Source: Bradyrhizobium diazoefficiens
Lineage (GTDB): Bacteria; Pseudomonadota; Alphaproteobacteria; Rhizobiales; Xanthobacteraceae
Length of the DNA: 64,000 nt
Reading direction: 5' to 3'
Assembly (NCBI RefSeq): GCF_016616885.1
Contig: NZ_CP067102.1
Span: 4,616,501 to 4,680,500, forward strand
Part shown: one piece after another, positions 21,246-29,286 of the stretch
Numbering within the stretch: the first letter of the stretch is position 1
Layout: each line of letters begins with the position of its first letter
The notes under the pieces: model-generated
What the model was told of the DNA's origin: nothing
Databases searched by the model: none
Seen by the model: only the letters and a program-made list of their open reading frames with translations
Program-made: the position numbers and the translations under genes

Positions 21246-22244
21246 TCACTCCTCCGGCAGACCCAGCATCAGCCGCATGTTCTGCACGGCTGCGCCCGAG
21301 GCGCCCTTGCCGAGATTGTCCAGCCGCGCGACCAGCACCGCCTGGTGATACTTGTCGCTGGCGAAGACGTAGAGCTCGAGCATGTTGGTCTCGTTAAGCG
21401 CTTCCGGCTCGATACGGCCGCCCTTTGACGCCTCGTTCTGGAGCGGCATCGCCGTGACGTAGTTTGAACCTGCGTAGCGCTTGGCCAGCGCGGCCTGCAG
21501 GTCCGCGCCGCTGGGCTTGCCCGGCAGCGTGTCGAGCTGAAGCGGGATCGAGACCAGCATGCCCTGCCGGTAATTGCCGACCGACGGGATGAAGATCGGC
21601 CGCCGCGTCAGGTTCGAATAGAGCTGCAGTTCGGGCAAATGCTTGTGCTCGAAGCCGAGGCCATAGAGCTCGAACGACGGCGCGCTGCCGTCTTCAAAGC
21701 TCGCGATCATCGACTTGCCGCCCCCGGAATAGCCGCTCACCGCATTGACGCTGATCGGATAGTCAGGCGGCAGCAGCCCGGCATCGACGATCGGCCGCAG
21801 CAGCGCGATGCCGCCGGTCGGATAGCAGCCGGGATTGGAGACATTCTTCGCAGCCTTGATTTTGCCGGCCTGGTCCGGCGCCAGCTCCGCAAAACCGTAA
21901 GCCCAGTCCGGCGCGACCCGGTAGGCGGTCGAGGCGTCCAGCACCTTCGGCCCTGCAGCGCCCATGCTGTCGATCAGCGCGACCGTCTCCTTGGCGGCGT
22001 CATCAGGCAGACAGAGGATGACGAGATCCACCTCCGCCATCAGCGCCTTCTTGGCCGCGGGATCCTTGCGCTTGTCGTCGGCGATGGTCTTCACCACGAC
22101 GTCGTTCTGGAGCTTGAGCCGCTCGTTGATGCCGAGCCCGGTGGTGCCGGAGCCGCCATCGACGAAGACGGTGGCGGGCTTCTTGGCTGCGCTGGAGGAC
22201 GGAGCCTGATTGGTGTCAACGAGACTGGTTTCAGAAAGACTCAT
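21246..22244 (-). CDS. argC: N-acetyl-gamma-glutamyl-phosphate reductase, type 2
   Basis: A 332-residue NADPH-dependent reductase of the short type 2 ArgC class. Motifs: [14 protein letters not shown] (nucleotide loop), [11 protein letters not shown], catalytic cysteine in NPGCYPTGG, and the [11 protein letters not shown] segment. It reduces N-acetylglutamyl phosphate to the semialdehyde in arginine synthesis. A separate type 1 ArgC lies immediately upstream on the same strand (193 bp gap), so two non-orthologous isozymes sit side by side. The start ATG overlaps the stop codon of a methyltransferase remnant (ATGA). Confidence 0.93.
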
Positions 22245-22436
22245 GGCACGATCCTTTCGAGCTTGTTCGTGTCTCCGCCGGCGCCGCGGCCGAGCTCGAG
22301 TATTTTGGCTTTCGGCGACAGCAGCGTTAGGAGGGCAGTCAGCCTGGCCTGGTGCGAGGTGATCTCGCGCCAGGCATAGGCCTCGGCGTTGCTCCGGTAG
22401 AATTGCGGCGTCCCCTCATCCGCGCCGGCACCTCGC
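22241..22436 (-). pseudogene. remnant of a SAM-dependent methyltransferase (N-terminal part)
   Basis: The frame encodes about 60 residues containing [11 protein letters not shown] and then [12 protein letters not shown], the start and motif I (family LDLGCGSG) of small class I methyltransferases. It then stops at TGA overlapping the argC ATG. The rest of the fold (about 130 residues) is missing, no ATG/GTG start fits the family N-terminus, and the usual Cys of motif I is Arg. Read by translating the gap between the two argC genes. Confidence 0.7.
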
Positions 22437-22437
22437 T

Positions 22438-23487
22438 TTATGGAAATAGTGCGATCTGCTCCAGCCCCGCGGTTTCAGGAAATCCGAACATCAGGTTCAT
22501 GTTCTGGATCGCCTGACCGGCCGAGCCCTTCACCAGATTGTCGAGCGTTGAAAGCACGATCGCCCGATCCTTGATGCGGTCGGCGACGACACCGATCTGA
22601 ACATAGTTGGAGCCGCGTACGTTCTGCGTCTGCGGCAGCACGCCCTTTTTGGCGACATGCACGAACGGCTCGTTGGCGTACGCTTTCTGCAGCGCTGCCC
22701 GCAGATCGTCGGGCGTTGCACCGTTGAGCTTGACGTAGGAGGTGCAGAACTCGCCCCGCGCCATCGGAATCAGATGCGGCGTGAAATTCACCGTTACCGC
22801 GGAGCCTGCCGCGACGCCGATTTCCTGCTCGATTTCAGGCGCGTGTCGGTGAGTGCCGACCGAATAGGGCGACAGCCCTTCGCCCGCTTCGCTGAACAGC
22901 GTGTTCTGCTTCAGCCCGCGGCCGGCGCCGGTGACGCCCGATTTCGCGTCGATGATGATGTCGTCAACGTCGATCAGCTTGGCCTTCGCCAGCGGAACCA
23001 GCGCCAGCAACACCGCCGTCGGATAGCAGCCGGGACAGGCGACCAGCCGGGCGGAAGTGATCTTCTCCCGGTAGAATTCGGTCAACCCATAGACAGCCTC
23101 GCCTTGCAGTTCGAGCGCACGATGCTCATGGCCGTACCACTGTGCATAGGTATCCTTGTCGCGCAGCCGGAAATCCGCGGACATGTCGAGGATCTTGATC
23201 TTGGGATTAGCCTTGAGCACGGCCGCGATGATCTCCTGCGTGGTGCCGTGTGGCAGCCCGCAGAGCACCGCGTCGAGCTTGGTCCAGTCGACCTTTTCCC
23301 ACTCCACGAGTTTTGGCAGGTCGAGCATGAAGAAGTGCGGAAACACCTCGCTCATGGCCTTGCCCGCATGGGTGTTGGCGGTAAGCGCCGTGATCTCGGC
23401 ATTCGGATGCCGCGCCAGCAGGCGCACCGCGTCGGCTCCAGTGTAGCCGGACGCGCCGAGAATGCCGATCTTCTTCTTCGTGCTCAT
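22438..23487 (-). CDS. argC: N-acetyl-gamma-glutamyl-phosphate reductase, type 1
   Basis: A 349-residue ArgC of the long type: GILGASGYTGADAVRLL nucleotide loop, LPHGTTQEI, DMSADFRL, catalytic Cys in VACPGCYPTA and the SGVTGAGRGLK segment. Third step of arginine biosynthesis. The ATG at 23487 overlaps the last base of the paiB-like stop codon (TGATG), and AAAGGGG lies upstream. An in-frame GTG one codon earlier is possible. The overlap implies translational coupling with the upstream gene. Confidence 0.95.
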   Translation of the reverse strand: MSTKKKIGILGASGYTGADAVRLLARHPNAEITALTANTHAGKAMSEVFPHFFMLDLPKLVEWEKVDWTKLDAVLCGLPHGTTQEIIAAVLKANPKIKILDMSADFRLRDKDTYAQWYGHEHRALELQGEAVYGLTEFYREKITSARLVACPGCYPTAVLLALVPLAKAKLIDVDDIIIDAKSGVTGAGRGLKQNTLFSEAGEGLSPYSVGTHRHAPEIEQEIGVAAGSAVTVNFTPHLIPMARGEFCTSYVKLNGATPDDLRAALQKAYANEPFVHVAKKGVLPQTQNVRGSNYVQIGVVADRIKDRAIVLSTLDNLVKGSAGQAIQNMNLMFGFPETAGLEQIALFP

Positions 23488-24170
23488 CACACGCCCCTTT
23501 CAGGCGCAATCGCTTGTTGTGTTTGTACCGCATCTGTTGCGAAGGCCAACGGTCTTGCTTCGCGCATCAGGCCTGCGATCGTGCGCGAGTCCGCATCCGC
23601 CTGCGAGCCCAACGCACCGCTGAGCGCCGCGTAATCGGCGTCGGATTTGTGCTGATTGAGTTTGAAGCTGCCTTCGACCTCTTCAACCGTCATGACCAGA
23701 CCCACAATCCCCTTCTTCAGCGCCTCGAGCCGGCCTGCGGTCATCTTCGCCGAAGTCCACGGCGTCTTCGGCAGCAGCCAGCTCTCGAACTTGTCGCTGA
23801 GCGTGTCGATCTGCACCGCCAGCTCGCCGTCCGACAACAACCGCACCGGGCCACTCAGATGCACCGACTGGTAGAGCCAGGTTGGCACCTGATCCGGCGA
23901 GACGTACCAGTCGGGCGATACATAGGCATCGGGGCCATTGATCGCGAGCAACCAGGACGTCACGCCGTCCGCAAGCTTTACCAGCGGATTGTGACGGGCG
24001 ACATGAAAGGCGGCCTGCGGCGTGCCGTCGGCGGCGTAGGTCAAATAGAACGGCAGCGGCGAGGCGACAGGCTTGTGGCCGTCGAAGGCGCACATGGTGC
24101 CGAAGCCGCGGTCGCCCGCGAATTTCAGGCTCGCGGCGCGGTCCGGCTTGAAAAAGGGTGGCGTGTACAT
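23487..24170 (-). CDS. PaiB-like FMN-binding negative transcriptional regulator
   Basis: A 227-residue split-barrel flavin-binding protein of the PaiB family. It starts MYTPPFFK, with ASPLPFYL, FHVARHNPL and KMTAGRLEALKKGIVGLVM as the conserved blocks. In Bacillus PaiB is linked to negative control of sporulation and protease genes; in proteobacteria the role is not settled. It is co-transcribed with, and overlaps, type 1 argC. Its own start is about 100 bp after the poly-Arg leader ORF and about 180 bp after a near-consensus promoter. Confidence 0.9.
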   Translation of the reverse strand: MYTPPFFKPDRAASLKFAGDRGFGTMCAFDGHKPVASPLPFYLTYAADGTPQAAFHVARHNPLVKLADGVTSWLLAINGPDAYVSPDWYVSPDQVPTWLYQSVHLSGPVRLLSDGELAVQIDTLSDKFESWLLPKTPWTSAKMTAGRLEALKKGIVGLVMTVEEVEGSFKLNQHKSDADYAALSGALGSQADADSRTIAGLMREARPLAFATDAVQTQQAIAPERGV

Positions 24171-24270
24171 CGTGGTCTCCTGCTGGGCCTTGTTGGGGGG
24201 CCGCCGGATCAGATCGCGCTGACAGGAGAGAGAATGCCGCGGATCGGATCCAGCGGCAAAGACGATGATC

Positions 24271-24348
24271 TCAAACGCGATCGACCGCCCAAACCGCTAA
24301 AGAGCGGCGGCGGCGACGGGCGAACAGGATGGTCGCAGCGTTGATCAT
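24271..24348 (-). CDS. 25-codon leader peptide with five consecutive Arg codons (candidate)
   Basis: A short ORF starting with ATG at 24348, about two bases downstream of the predicted transcription start, encodes 25 residues. Residues 11-15 are five arginines (CGT CGC CGC CGC CGC) and residue 24 is another. It sits upstream of an arginine-biosynthesis transcription unit (paiB-argC), which suggests a ribosome-mediated attenuator or Arg sensor. A 7-base complement (GATCGCG in the ORF tail, CGCGATC about 60 bases downstream) could form an alternative stem. No U-tract terminator is obvious. Expression is inferred, not shown. Confidence 0.45.
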   Translation of the reverse strand: MINAATILFARRRRRSLAVWAVDRV

Positions 24349-24356
24349 GGCGCGGG

Positions 24357-24385
24357 GCTATAGGGCCGGCGGGTTCCTGGGTCAA
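24357..24385 (-). promoter_or_regulatory. near-consensus sigma-70-type promoter for leader-paiB-argC
   Basis: On the minus strand TTGACC (24385-24380), 17-base spacer, TATAGC (24362-24357). The start of transcription would fall at about 24350, nearly on the leader ATG, giving a leaderless leader peptide. The remainder of the 24171-24485 gap up to the serine hydrolase stop shows nothing else recognisable. Confidence 0.6.
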
Positions 24386-24485
24386 GCCCAAATCGGTCGG
24401 GACGTGATGGCGGGATGCCTGTATCGGAGCCGAACTTGTAGTAGAATGATAATAGAACCTTATACTTGCACCAGCCTAATCCGCC

Positions 24486-26237
24486 CTACGGGATGCGCTT
24501 CGCGATAAAGGTACCGTTCGGCTGGTGATACACGAGTTCCTTGATCGCGGCGGACGGGCCGCGGCGGAATTCGGTGCGATAGCCGTCGAGCTGGACGATG
24601 CTGAACGTCGCGCCCTGGTAGGGCCGTAGCTGGTAGAGCGGCACGAACGGAATTTTCAGCGTAAGCTGGCTCTCGGCATCCTCGGTGACGACGTGGGTCT
24701 GATCGCCGCGAATGTATTCGCCTACGCAGGCCGACCGGAATGCAGGGTCCATGCATTCGCCTGCGGCGGTGCGCCTGAAGACGATATCCGGCACCAGCAC
24801 TTCGAGCTGGGCCGAGAGACTGGCAATGTTGCCGTCGCGGTCGGTCGCAAAGGTAATCACGAGATCGTCCGGATTCAGGTCTCCGAAAACGTACGGCAGC
24901 TGGAACGAATCGTAGTGCCGGTGTGCGAGCTTCGCCTTCGTGCCGCGCCAGGCCCAGTGCAGGCTGTCGCCGTCTTGTGTGATGACCACCCGGCCATAGG
25001 CCGGGTGTTCATAGGCGCCGCAAAAATCTGCGAGATCATGGCTGGGCTTCGTGTTCAGCTTGCGCGCTGTAGGCTTCGCCGCGTCGTCGGTTTTCTGTTG
25101 CGCCAGCGCCTTGCGGCGCATGTCGCGCAGGCGATCCAGCCATGGCACGGGTTGGTTGCCGGCGAGATGATCGTGAACGCGGTTGATCAGAATGCTGGAC
25201 ACCGGATTGCCGCCGGTGTTGGTGAAGACGGCGATGCCGGTGTTTCGCGCCGGGATGAGGCGCATCAGCGTGCTCCAGCCGAGCCAGCCGCCGGAGTGTC
25301 CGACCACGCGCTCGCCCCGGTAGGTGGTGTGGTTGAAGCCCAGCCCGTAGTGCGAATGGCCGAACTCCTCCCACTCAGCAGCGCCTGCGAAGACGCGCGG
25401 CGACTGCATCTCCCGGATCAGCGTGGACGACAGCAGGCGCTCGCCGGCGAATTCGCCCTCGGCCAGCAAGAACTTCATCCAGTTGGCGAGGGCGGCAACC
25501 GAGGTGACGATGGCGCCGGCGCCCGTCGTGGTGATGGGGAAGAATTTGCTGCGCGAACGCACGTCGCCGCGTTCCACCAGATAGGGAACGGCGACATCAG
25601 TTGCCGCGGCGTACTCCTCGGCTGAAAAGCCGACCGGCATCCGCAATTTATCAGTCAGCCGGGTGCGGATGAAATCTTCATAGCTCTGACCACTGATGCG
25701 CTCGACGACAAGGCCGGCGGCATTGTAGGCGAGATTGTTGTATTGAAAATCGGTGCGGATGTCCCGGGCCGGCTCAAGGTGACGCAGCGCCGTCATCATC
25801 TCGCTGCGCGAGAGATCGGCTGGAATCCATATCCAGTCGTGGCGGGGCAGGCCGGAGTGGTGGCTGAGCAGGTCGCGCACGGTGACACGCTCGGTCGCGA
25901 TCGCGTCATACAGGCGGAATTCGGGAATGGTGTCGCGGACCGGCTTTTTCCAATCGAGCCGTCCCTCGGCCACCAGCAGCGCCAACGCCGTGGCGGTGAA
26001 AGTTTTGGTGATCGAGCAGATCAGGAACTGCGTCTCTGGCGTCGCGGGCAGCCCGCTCTCGACGTCGCGCTGGCCCCATGTCCTGAGCAGCACCGTCTCG
26101 CCGTTCTGCACGACGGCGAGTGTCACGGCCGGCACCTGCCACTCCGCCATCGCCTCCGCGACCAGCGCGTCGAGCTCGGGGATGAGGGCTGTGATGGTCG
26201 TGTTGCTTCGGACAGATCGGCTGGACATGACACACAT
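24486..26237 (-). CDS. serine hydrolase, beta-lactamase/PBP4* family, cytosolic
   Basis: About 580 residues. The beta-lactamase-fold domain occupies roughly 20-370: SxxK in CSITKTFTA, tyrosine motif YNN in FQYNNLAYN, and HSGG in VVGHSGGWLG, the third catalytic block. It is followed by a C-terminal beta-rich domain (about 400-583) as in DD-peptidase-like esterases. No signal peptide is visible, so a cytosolic amidase or esterase is more likely than a cell-wall enzyme. The ATG three codons inside (26228) is an equally good start. A 21-bp hyphenated palindrome at 26279-26299 lies just upstream. Confidence 0.85.
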   Translation of the reverse strand: MCVMSSRSVRSNTTITALIPELDALVAEAMAEWQVPAVTLAVVQNGETVLLRTWGQRDVESGLPATPETQFLICSITKTFTATALALLVAEGRLDWKKPVRDTIPEFRLYDAIATERVTVRDLLSHHSGLPRHDWIWIPADLSRSEMMTALRHLEPARDIRTDFQYNNLAYNAAGLVVERISGQSYEDFIRTRLTDKLRMPVGFSAEEYAAATDVAVPYLVERGDVRSRSKFFPITTTGAGAIVTSVAALANWMKFLLAEGEFAGERLLSSTLIREMQSPRVFAGAAEWEEFGHSHYGLGFNHTTYRGERVVGHSGGWLGWSTLMRLIPARNTGIAVFTNTGGNPVSSILINRVHDHLAGNQPVPWLDRLRDMRRKALAQQKTDDAAKPTARKLNTKPSHDLADFCGAYEHPAYGRVVITQDGDSLHWAWRGTKAKLAHRHYDSFQLPYVFGDLNPDDLVITFATDRDGNIASLSAQLEVLVPDIVFRRTAAGECMDPAFRSACVGEYIRGDQTHVVTEDAESQLTLKIPFVPLYQLRPYQGATFSIVQLDGYRTEFRRGPSAAIKELVYHQPNGTFIAKRIP

Positions 26238-26278
26238 TTTTTTCCGGTCGCCTCCACAATCGCTGGATGACGACCCGT

Positions 26279-26299
26279 AATGCTACGTGTCGTAGCATT
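26279..26299. promoter_or_regulatory. 21-bp inverted repeat, candidate operator
   Basis: AATGCTACG-TGT-CGTAGCATT, nine-base perfect arms around three bases, 42 bp before the serine hydrolase start. Size and symmetry fit a dimeric TetR- or MarR-type repressor site. No cognate regulator gene is adjacent. Confidence 0.5.
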
Positions 26300-26436
26300 T
26301 GCGGCTGGCCCGTGCAAGCGTGGCACATATTTCTCGGAAGCCTGCGATGGATCAGGCAATCGCGCTGCTCTTTCCTCTCGCGGCCGGCAGCCCATCGGCT
26401 GATCGATATCGTGCGCAGCACGCTCCAGAAGACCCT

Positions 26437-26967
26437 CTAGATCACCCGCCAGAGCCATTCCATGATCGTCGCGATCACGTCGCCAAACAGCAGGAGCGCC
26501 GCCGACCAGACCAGCGCGGAGACGAAATTGGCGGCCTGAAAGCTCCAGTAAGGCATTTCGAAAATGCCAGCGGCGAGCGGCACGGAGGCGCGCAAGGGGC
26601 CGAAGAAGCGGCCGATGAAGATGCTGGGCACACCCCAGCTGCGTACGAAGGCCTCGCCCTTTGGCAGGATTTCCGGATAGCGCGAGAGCGGCCACATCTG
26701 GGCGACCTGCTCCTTGTAGCGGTAGCCGAACCAGTAGGAGACCCAGTCGCCAAGTGCGGCGCCGATGCCGCCGGCAATCCAGACCGGATAGAAGCTGATG
26801 CCGCTCGCACCGATCAACGCACCGATCGCCACCAAAGCACCCCAGGCCGGGATCAGGAGCGAGATGAAAGCCAGCGACTCGCCGAAGGCCAGCAGGAACA
26901 CGATCGGCGCCGCCCAGACCTGATGAGCACGCACGAAGTCGGCCAGCGCGTGCGCGTACTGCTCCAT
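26437..26967 (-). CDS. DedA-family membrane protein
   Basis: A 176-residue VTT-domain (DedA) membrane protein with about five hydrophobic segments. The family signature GRFFGPLRASVPLAAGIFEM occurs at about residues 115-134. An acidic/Gly-rich re-entrant region (GAALGDWVSYWFG) precedes it. DedA proteins act as lipid scramblases or flippases, for example for undecaprenyl phosphate, and support envelope integrity. Divergent from parE. Confidence 0.9.
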   Translation of the reverse strand: MEQYAHALADFVRAHQVWAAPIVFLLAFGESLAFISLLIPAWGALVAIGALIGASGISFYPVWIAGGIGAALGDWVSYWFGYRYKEQVAQMWPLSRYPEILPKGEAFVRSWGVPSIFIGRFFGPLRASVPLAAGIFEMPYWSFQAANFVSALVWSAALLLFGDVIATIMEWLWRVI

Positions 26968-27032
26968 TCCAGATCGCCTTCCCGCCCCGTCACGAGTTCG
27001 TCAGATGAAAAGACTGGTAAGCCAAGGACTTG

Positions 27033-27049
27033 TGTGACATCAAGTCACA
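27033..27049. promoter_or_regulatory. TGTGAC-N5-GTCACA inverted repeat, candidate regulator site
   Basis: A 17-bp symmetric site in the 270-bp divergent gap between dedA and parE. It resembles a CRP/FNR-type box but with seven rather than six bases between TGTGA and TCACA. A second hairpin with arms GCCCAAG / CTTGGGC follows at 27057-27075. Confidence 0.35.
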
Positions 27050-27237
27050 AAACCCCGCCCAAGCCGGGCTTGGGCCTCAAATTGCCGGGAACTGGTAGGG
27101 ATACGGCGTAAAATCGCCGAGATTGGCTCTCACCCACACCCCGCCCGGCTGGCACGCGGTGACCTTTCCAAGCCAGCCGTGGCATAGTCGCCTGAACCGA
27201 TTCGCCGCTGCGCGGCCCTCAAAACGCATCAAGATAT

Positions 27238-29286
27238 ATGTCCAAGCATTTGAAAACAAAAAGCAAAAACGATTTGTTCGACGGCAATGAGCCGAAAGCT
27301 CGCACGACTGCCGCAAAGGCGGCCCCGCGTGGGACCGGTGGCGAGGCCGATTACACGGCCGCCGACATCGAGGTGCTTGAAGGACTGGAACCGGTCCGGC
27401 GCCGGCCCGGCATGTATATCGGTGGCACCGACGAGAAGGCGCTGCATCATCTCTTCGCCGAAGTCATCGACAACTCGATGGACGAGGCCTTAGCGGGGCA
27501 CGCGACCTTCATCGGCGTCGAGCTCTCCGCAGACGGCTTCCTCACCGTCACCGACAATGGCCGCGGCATCCCGATCGATCCGCATCCGAAGTTCCCGAAG
27601 AAGTCGGCGCTTGAAGTCATCATGTGCACGCTGCATTCGGGCGGCAAGTTCGACAGCAAGGTCTACGAGACCTCGGGCGGTCTGCACGGCGTCGGCATCT
27701 CCGTGGTGAACGCACTCTCCTCGCGGCTCGAGGTCGAGGTCGCGCGCGGCCAGAAGCTGCATCGCATGACGTTCGAGCGCGGCCATCCCAAGGGCAAGCT
27801 CGAGGATCTCGGCAAGGTCAACAACCGCCGCGGCACGCGCGTACGCTTCAAGCCCGACACCGACATCTTCGGCGCCAAGGCCGCGTTCAAGCCGCAGCGC
27901 CTGTTCAAGATGACGCGCTCAAAGGCCTATCTGTTCGGCGGCGTCGAGATCCGCTGGAACTGTGCGCCCGAGCTGCTCAAGGGCGTCGAGGATGTTCCAC
28001 CGGAAGCGACCTTCCACTTCCCCGGCGGCCTGAAGGACTATCTGGCAGCCGCGATCCACGCCGACACGCTGGTGCACCCCGACATCTTCTCCGGCAAATC
28101 GGGCCGCAACGGTGCGCATGGCGCCTGCGAATGGGCCGTGGCCTGGACCGCGGATGCCGACGGCTTCCTCTCCTCCTACACCAACACCGTTCCGACGCCC
28201 GATGGCGGTACGCACGAATCGGGCCTGCGCAGCGCGCTGTTGCGCGGCCTGAAGGACCACGCCGAGCGCGTCGGCCAGGGCAAGCGCGCTTCGTCCATCA
28301 CCTCGGAAGACGTGATGGTGGGGGCCGCCGTGATGCTCTCGGTGTTCGTGCGCGAGCCTGAATTCCAGGGCCAGACCAAGGATCGTCTCGCCACCGCAGA
28401 AGCGCAGCGCATCGTCGAACAGGCGATGAAGGATCCGTTCGATCATTGGCTGTCGGGCAATCCGAACATGGCCAACCGGCTGCTCGACTTCGTGATCGAC
28501 CGCGCCGAGGAGCGTCTGCGCCGGCGGCAGGAGAAAGAGACCGCGCGGAAAACCGCGGGCAAGAAGCTGCGCCTACCCGGCAAGCTCGCCGACTGCACCG
28601 ATGCGGGCACCGACGGCTCAGAACTCTTCATCGTCGAGGGCGACTCGGCCGGCGGCAGCGCCAAGCAGGCGCGCGACCGCAAGACCCAGGCTGTGCTGCC
28701 GCTGCGCGGCAAGATCCTCAACGTCGCCTCCGCCGGCAAGGACAAGCTGACGGCGAACGCCCAGCTCTCCGATCTGGTGCAGGCGATCGGTTGCGGCCAG
28801 CTTCTGCAATATCGCGAAGAGGATCTGCGCTATCAGCGCATCATCATCATGACCGACGCCGACGTCGACGGCGCCCACATTGCTTCGCTGCTGATCACCT
28901 TCTTCTACCGGCAGATGCCGAAGCTGATCGACGAAGGACATCTCTTCCTTGCTGTACCGCCGCTCTACAAGCTGACCCACGGCACCAAGTCAGTCTACGC
29001 GCGCGACGACAAGCACAAGGAAGAGCTGATCAAGAGCACGTTCAACGCCAATGCCAAGGTCGAGGTGAACCGCTTCAAAGGCCTCGGCGAGATGATGCCG
29101 GCGCAGCTCAAGGAAACCACTATGGATCCGAGCAAGCGCACATTGCTCAAGGTGGTACTGTTGCCCGACGATCGCGACACCACTGCGGATTCAGTGGAGC
29201 GCCTGATGGGCACCAAGGCCGAAGCGCGCTTCGCCTTCATCTCCGACAAGGCCGAGTTCGCCAGCGAAGAGCTGCTCGACGTCTGA
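27238..29286 (+). CDS. parE: DNA topoisomerase IV subunit B
   Basis: A 682-residue type IIA topoisomerase ATPase subunit, which with ParC decatenates daughter chromosomes. GHKL ATPase motifs: [11 protein letters not shown] (Mg/ATP Asn), DNGRGIP and [21 protein letters not shown] motifs: [15 protein letters not shown] and DADVDGAHI. The length and the absence of the GyrB tail insertion favour ParE over GyrB. The N-terminal 40 residues are a basic, variable extension; the ATG at 27238 is the first in frame. A strong terminator follows. Confidence 0.96.

Follow-up and report, generated by a model that had tools for sequence, protein, structure and literature searches.

The question raised by this locus is why a short ORF with five consecutive Arg codons stands directly before a paiB-argC unit, and whether it senses arginine on behalf of argC. 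The window, that is, the whole 64,000-nt stretch of Bradyrhizobium diazoefficiens DNA that was analyzed (contig NZ_CP067102.1, positions 4,616,501 to 4,680,500), carries the following features, of which the three promoter elements and the Shine-Dalgarno sequence were read directly from the letters. Coordinates are those of the window.

24385-24380, minus strand: -35 hexamer TTGACC; TTGAC is identical in all 24 aligned genus sequences.
24379-24363, minus strand: -35/-10 spacer of 17 nt.
24362-24357, minus strand: -10 hexamer TATAGC, 8 nt from the leader ATG.
24348-24271, minus strand: leader ORF of 25 codons, MINAATILFARRRRRSLAVWAVDRV, with ATG at 24348-24346 and TGA at 24273-24271.
24318-24304, minus strand: Arg codons 11-15 (CGT CGC CGC CGC CGC), which constitute RNA segment 1 and are predicted to pair with segment 2.
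24276-24297, minus strand: segment 2, GCGGTTTGGGCGGTCGATCGCG, the partner of segment 1 (no stall) or of segment 3 (stall) in the predicted folds.
24235-24258, minus strand: terminator-like hairpin of segments 3 and 4, U-GCCGC-U-GGA-UCCGA-UCC-GCGGC-A, based on pair counts, covarying outer pairs and predicted folds.
24221-24235, minus strand: pyrimidine-rich tail ATTCTCTCTCCTGTC on the 3' side of the hairpin, based on a comparison of T fractions.
24200-24210, minus strand: segment 5b, GATCCGGCGGC, complementary to segment 3, based on a shuffle test.
24177-24181, minus strand: Shine-Dalgarno sequence AGGAG of paiB, conserved in the alignments.
23487-24170, minus strand: paiB-like gene, by its domain match (FMN_bind_2, PF04299).
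22438-23490, minus strand: argC type 1, by its profile match (TIGR01850).
21246-22244, minus strand: argC type 2, the second, downstream argC, by its profile match (TIGR01851).

A sequence-only reading of this DNA had pointed to the promoter, the 25-codon ORF and the five consecutive Arg codons, and all of these were confirmed on the minus strand at the positions listed above. It had also placed the ORF about 100 bases before a unit with type 1 argC, which proved correct: the leader stop lies 100 nt from the paiB ATG, and the 3' end of paiB overlaps the start of the TIGR01850 gene (23487-24170 versus 23490-22438, minus strand). The second, type 2 argC and the conserved hairpin between leader and paiB had not been noted in that reading. 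Given that the -10 hexamer is only 8 nt from the leader ATG, a leaderless or nearly leaderless transcript is predicted from the spacing, with its start at the ATG or about two bases before it.

Conservation of the leader was analyzed within the genus. When 41 genomes were searched at the DNA level, 25 of the same genus gave a match, and 24 of the matches (the window's own genome included) spanned the leader. All 24 aligned sequences kept TTGAC-N17-TATAG, the ATG, the frame, four or five consecutive Arg codons and the stop; this alignment of the argC upstream regions, which had been proposed as a check, thus showed both the Arg run and its reading frame to be conserved (24/24). In the 25th genome (G020), the DNA match covered the adjoining stretch only, and the leader was later located through the position of argC. 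Together with 19 others chosen in the same way, this genome made up a set of 20 further genus genomes, and the promoter, an ORF with at least three consecutive Arg codons and the hairpin were found in 20/20 of them. The leader layout was kept in 44/44 same-genus genomes examined, and the leader is not a chance arrangement, because its parts were retained in all 24 aligned and all 20 further genomes. In a separate scan, such a leader was carried by 11/11 Bradyrhizobium loci and by one MAG; the Bradyrhizobium carriers include B. jicamae, B. acaciae, B. uaiense, B. viridifuturi and B. lablabi.

At the level of the family, which we take to be Xanthobacteraceae in the GTDB sense (the neighbouring family referred to below being presumably Phreatobacteraceae), profile R1, a sequence-only profile built from 15 genus leaders with the promoter included, was run on 248 genomes. 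Matches were obtained in 172/248 genomes at E <= 0.01 and in 134/248 at E <= 1e-6 (hand count). Seventy matches, namely the best 30 and 40 picked to cover other genera, were examined; 17 of them belonged to the window's genus, one being the window's own copy. Directly downstream of the leader, paiB or argC was found in 70/70 loci: 43 had paiB and argC, 26 had argC without a paiB match, and one (L048) had paiB at the contig end. A run of codons for the product of the pathway to which argC belongs was present as at least three consecutive Arg codons in 68/70 loci, and the Arg codons were interrupted in the other two (L084 and L085). With the frame and the Arg run conserved and paiB or argC downstream at every locus, the earlier proposal of an arginine-sensing regulatory leader for argC was strongly supported. 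In G062, another genome of the family, no leader was found within about 1,870 nt upstream of argC.

The downstream genes varied behind this one leader. Across 60 genus genomes, type 2 argC was found in 54 and type 1 in 27, with at least one of the two in all 60, and the argC behind the Bradyrhizobium leader was of type 1, type 2 or both. In the window, the two types lie in tandem, type 1 (TIGR01850) followed by type 2 (TIGR01851; 21246-23490, minus strand), a seemingly redundant pair under a common leader, differentially lost among the genomes. Since one leader was kept while the argC type (1, 2 or both) and the presence of paiB changed, the leader follows function and not the gene.

A table was drawn up of 58 diverse leaders, including four from the neighbouring family. 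The gap between the -10 hexamer and the ATG was 6-9 nt in 54/58, the four others all being from the neighbouring family, and the spacer was 17 nt in 52 of those 54, a regularity that is partly due to construction because the search models included the promoter. The peptide was 16-27 residues long, and its Arg run came in frame at a distance of 7-13 codons from the ATG; the longest runs together comprised CGC (168), CGT (40) and CGA (4) codons. Beyond the run the peptide varied widely, while the run stayed in frame, and RNA segments outside the leader ORF were among the best-conserved alignment columns. Third codon positions differed modestly more than first and second positions before the run (0.34 versus 0.25 and 0.23); after the run, the values were 0.30 versus 0.22 and 0.28.

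On the 3' side of the leader stop, the consensus GCCGCyGGA-N5-UCC-(C)-GCGGC was observed. The inner five pairs of this hairpin were nearly invariant, and the two outer pairs varied (GC, AU, CG, GU and UG at one; UA, UG, CG and GU at the other). As shown by the pair counts, 92.3% of the cells were paired and 14 cells were changed on both sides, against a shuffled mean of 6.2; the count of 14 was reached by 1/500 shuffles. Two of the five hairpin measures were not above the shuffles, namely pairs with a change on both sides (reached by 301/500 shuffles) and further pair types (reached by 51/500), and the outermost pair was unpaired in 15/44 sequences. When the partner was shifted by 1-3 columns, pairing fell to 18-63%. 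In the 14 nt on the 3' side of the stem, the T fraction was 0.40, compared with 0.21 elsewhere in the leader, and it was higher in 51/55 leaders. The terminator scan of the window, which required 5 T in 8, found none, the T tract of the window being too weak. For this genome, the weak tract genuinely undermines the case for an intrinsic terminator, and Rho could be needed for termination there. The sequence-only remark that no classical terminator is obvious thus held for the T tract, which lies below the scan threshold; it was not supported for the locus as a whole, given the conserved hairpin with its pyrimidine tract and the canonical terminator of the neighbouring family.

The effect of a stalled ribosome on this hairpin was predicted by computing the stem probability of each leader with the ribosome-covered part removed. 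Fifty of 55 leaders were scored (L073, L078, L090, L093 and L094 were unscorable). With the A site on the first, second and third codon of the Arg run, the median terminator probability was 0.18, 0.29 and 0.69, respectively, and it was 0.90 from the fourth codon onward (50 leaders) as well as with the ribosome at the stop codon (38 leaders). For the window, the predicted probability was 0.10 for a ribosome stalled on the first codon of the run and 0.99 for one that had reached the stop codon. The mean under the stall was 0.34, compared with 0.64 after a dinucleotide-preserving shuffle of the stretch between ribosome and hairpin, and random synonymous codons after the Arg run gave 0.71. By prediction, the stalled probability was below the shuffled control in 39/50 leaders; the 11 without the switch were L045, L058, L061, L062, L071, L089, L092, L095, L097, L098 and L115. 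The p-values of this stall test are too small because the leader sequences share ancestry. Footprints of 8-15 nt gave stall medians of 0.18-0.37 (51 leaders), and stalls upstream of the Arg run likewise reduced the terminator (medians 0.17-0.69). The antiterminator fold of the window had -28.2 kcal/mol versus -14.4 kcal/mol for the hairpin alone, these being RNAs of different length. According to these predictions, a stall on the Arg codons would favour the antiterminator fold.

The complementary words GATCGCG and CGCGATC, which had been suggested earlier as the switching stem, were not conserved: both occurred in 7/17 rows of alignment A1, these seven being the window's own subgroup, and the other ten rows differed at both places. 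They were rejected as the switch, and the predicted switch consists instead of the Arg codons, GCGGU..GGGCGG, GCCGCYGGA and UCC-GCGGC. A further pairing, between segments 3 and 5b, was matched by at most 5% of shuffles in 30/50 leaders. Variants matched on both sides were found (GGAGAC/GUCUCC, GGACGA/UCGUCC and GGACAU/AUGUCC), and a column count of the helix core showed little covariation beyond the shuffles. As modelled, this 3-5b helix would form a long hairpin that is possible solely in the read-through RNA, and it has no place in the attenuation model.

To follow the leader outside the family, model R2 (45 sequences) was used to search 249 genomes from the order and 240 from the class. Among 51 non-family loci that were fetched, argC was present in three, which belong to a single genus in a neighbouring family; the other 48 matches (E from 6e-6 upwards) were taken as chance in G+C-rich DNA. 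Behind the 16-residue leader of the neighbouring family (e.g., MNMIATSTRRRRLILR) come a G+C-rich hairpin (e.g., GCCGCGC-loop-GCGCGGC) and 6-8 T, which together make a textbook terminator. Leader and canonical terminator were observed in 5/5 genomes examined from this family, two of which had been found solely through the model and three through argC; three or four consecutive Arg codons were present in four of them, and RSRR in the fifth (G369).

As a control within the order, 65 argC upstream regions of other families were inspected, 64 of which were readable (L166 lies at a contig edge); the sample omits thirteen further argC matches outside the two families. No leader of the family type or of the neighbouring-family type was found before argC in the 64 readable loci, within an upstream reach of 400 nt for the neighbouring-family type and of up to 1,500 nt for the family type (about 600-800 nt for 36 loci). 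The criterion used for the family type recovered 68/70 family loci and 20/20 genus loci. Small ORFs with RRR that came from looser scans in other families were rejected by eye, having no promoter, ATG or hairpin. The gene rpsI was observed upstream of argC in some of the other-family loci. With no leader at the 64 other-family argC loci and one family genome without it, the leader is, as far as these upstream sequences indicate, a clade-level and not an order-wide feature.

The reading that we regard as highly probable is that of a ribosome-mediated transcription attenuator, which would couple the supply of charged tRNA-Arg to the expression of argC (with paiB in front here). The elements, their conservation and the link to argC are seen in the sequences, and the computation supports the alternative folds. 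For the start site, termination, ribosome stalling and the arginine response, we infer the following course. RNA polymerase would start at the leader ATG or about two bases before it, and a ribosome would initiate on the leaderless transcript and translate the Arg run. When arginine is plentiful, the ribosome would reach the stop codon, segments 3 and 4 would form the G+C-rich hairpin before the pyrimidine tract, and hairpin and tract would cause termination, leaving a truncated transcript of about 115-130 nt. Under arginine shortage, the ribosome would stall on the first Arg codons and cover segment 1; segment 2 would then pair with segment 3, no terminator would form, and paiB-argC would be transcribed.

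The same leader could be read as a translational attenuator, in which a stall on the Arg codons refolds the RNA and opens the paiB/argC ribosome-binding site without any termination. The sequence-only reading had leaned this way in suggesting that control may act on translation, and such a mechanism would suit both the window, which has no long T run, and segment 5b, which lies near the Shine-Dalgarno sequence and pairs with segment 3 in 30/50 leaders. However, predicted access to the ribosome-binding site was unchanged between the stalled and unstalled states of 55 leaders (mean openness 0.46 stalled versus 0.46 at the stop; stalled higher in 25/55), so that by prediction the site was not alternately hidden and freed by the fold in these leaders. 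Moreover, the hairpin of the window ends about 55 nt upstream of the Shine-Dalgarno sequence, and canonical terminators stand at the same place in the neighbouring family. The equal access and these terminators favour transcription attenuation over translational control, which we consider unlikely.

Another way of obtaining termination without long T runs would be Rho: translation of the leader would gate the access of Rho to the pyrimidine stretch behind the hairpin, and the Arg codons would time the coverage by the ribosome. The tail is indeed pyrimidine-rich and mostly lacks long T runs, but a stall far upstream would be expected to expose more RNA and to lower expression at low arginine, which is the wrong sign for a biosynthetic gene and argues against Rho-dependent control; the hairpin, with its pair conservation and some covariation, also speaks against this reading, to which we give a very low probability. 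The poorest prospects are those of a conserved small Arg-rich protein with a function of its own, whose position before argC would be incidental. Its ORF is intact in every examined locus, and peTrpL of Sinorhizobium meliloti acts in trans (PMC7298713); yet the peptide outside the Arg run varies widely (lengths 16-27), the best-conserved columns include RNA segments beyond the ORF, and 70/70 loci retain the link to argC or paiB-argC. As an addition to the attenuator, the terminated leader RNA and the Arg-rich peptide might also act in trans, by analogy with rnTrpL and peTrpL, and adjust other arginine genes that lack such a leader, with the 3-5b helix as a second layer of control on paiB-argC; this extension is doubtful, though conceivable.

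Transcription attenuation at the leader was also compared with known systems. For trpL of S. meliloti (rnTrpL and peTrpL), an ORF at the first codon of the transcript, alternative hairpins and an early-terminated small RNA are described in PMC7298713 and PMC10117765, where peTrpL of Bradyrhizobium japonicum is also given. The rhizobial trp attenuator shares with the argC leader the consecutive codons for the pathway product and the position before a biosynthetic gene, and it resembles the predictions made here in the first-codon leader ORF (stated for S. meliloti), the alternative hairpins and the early-terminated small RNA; it differs in acting on tryptophan and trpE, where arginine and argC are concerned here, and in its peptide and RNA segments. 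The Salmonella speF leader, whose orf34 involves Rho and two consecutive Arg codons, resembles the proposed argC attenuator in that low arginine is sensed by Arg codons of a leader ORF and an alternative fold decides expression; it differs in that it controls ornithine decarboxylase, has a long leader with an ORF that starts at +32 with a Shine-Dalgarno sequence, and acts through Rho, RNase G and sequestration of the ribosome-binding site (PMC6386406). The uORFC-8-2 of cysS in Rhodobacterales is likewise alphaproteobacterial, and its authors interpreted it as a ribosome-mediated attenuator that ends in an intrinsic terminator, but it has cysteine codons, precedes a tRNA synthetase gene and belongs to another order (PMC8632094).

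Repression by ArgR solves the same problem, the control of argC by arginine, by means of a DNA-binding repressor. The ArgR profile matched 0/61 family genomes and 9/14 control genomes. In PMC5343134, ArgR is described as highly conserved in many gammaproteobacterial groups and absent from other classes. In the window's genome, no convincing Arg leader was found within 400 nt upstream of argG, argJ and argH, the three genes to which that scan was limited. A search with Rfam 15 gave two matches at E about 0.7, both elsewhere in window positions 22000-27500 and neither on the leader, and nothing at E <= 0.1 in ten relatives.

A start-site paper on B. japonicum (PMC4842269) gives 320 starts suggestive of leaderless transcription; neither argC nor arginine is mentioned in its main text. 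Among the papers listed by searches of open-licence full-text literature, none dealt with an argC leader, with arginine attenuation of a bacterial arginine biosynthetic gene or with arginine control of argC in the window's family. The finding yields a prediction for the regulation of the arginine pathway across Bradyrhizobium and related bacteria, and it names the codons and stems to be mutated; if confirmed, arginine synthesis would join the leader-peptide-attenuated pathways of the alphaproteobacteria.

Several observations were made on the neighbouring genes. Between the two argC genes (22245-22437, minus strand), one frame resembles the remnant of another protein, methyltransferase-like by eye only. 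A gene of the beta-lactamase family (PF00144 and DUF3471; 24486-26237, minus strand) has its end some 100 nt upstream of the leader promoter. At several other genus loci, the sequence at this place ends like the window gene at 26437-26967 (...MEWxWRVI), and for this reason the beta-lactamase-like gene looks inserted in the window's genome, as judged by comparison of these loci. The type 1 ArgC proteins of two neighbouring-family loci, L107 and L115, were 83-84% identical to the ArgC of the window, and that of a third, L108, was 56% identical. Within the window's family outside the genus, ArgC was mostly about 55-62% identical to that of the window, with L047 (91%) and L091 (81%) as exceptions. 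That L107 and L115 are closer to the window in ArgC than are most members of its own family outside the genus suggests that argC was transferred horizontally.
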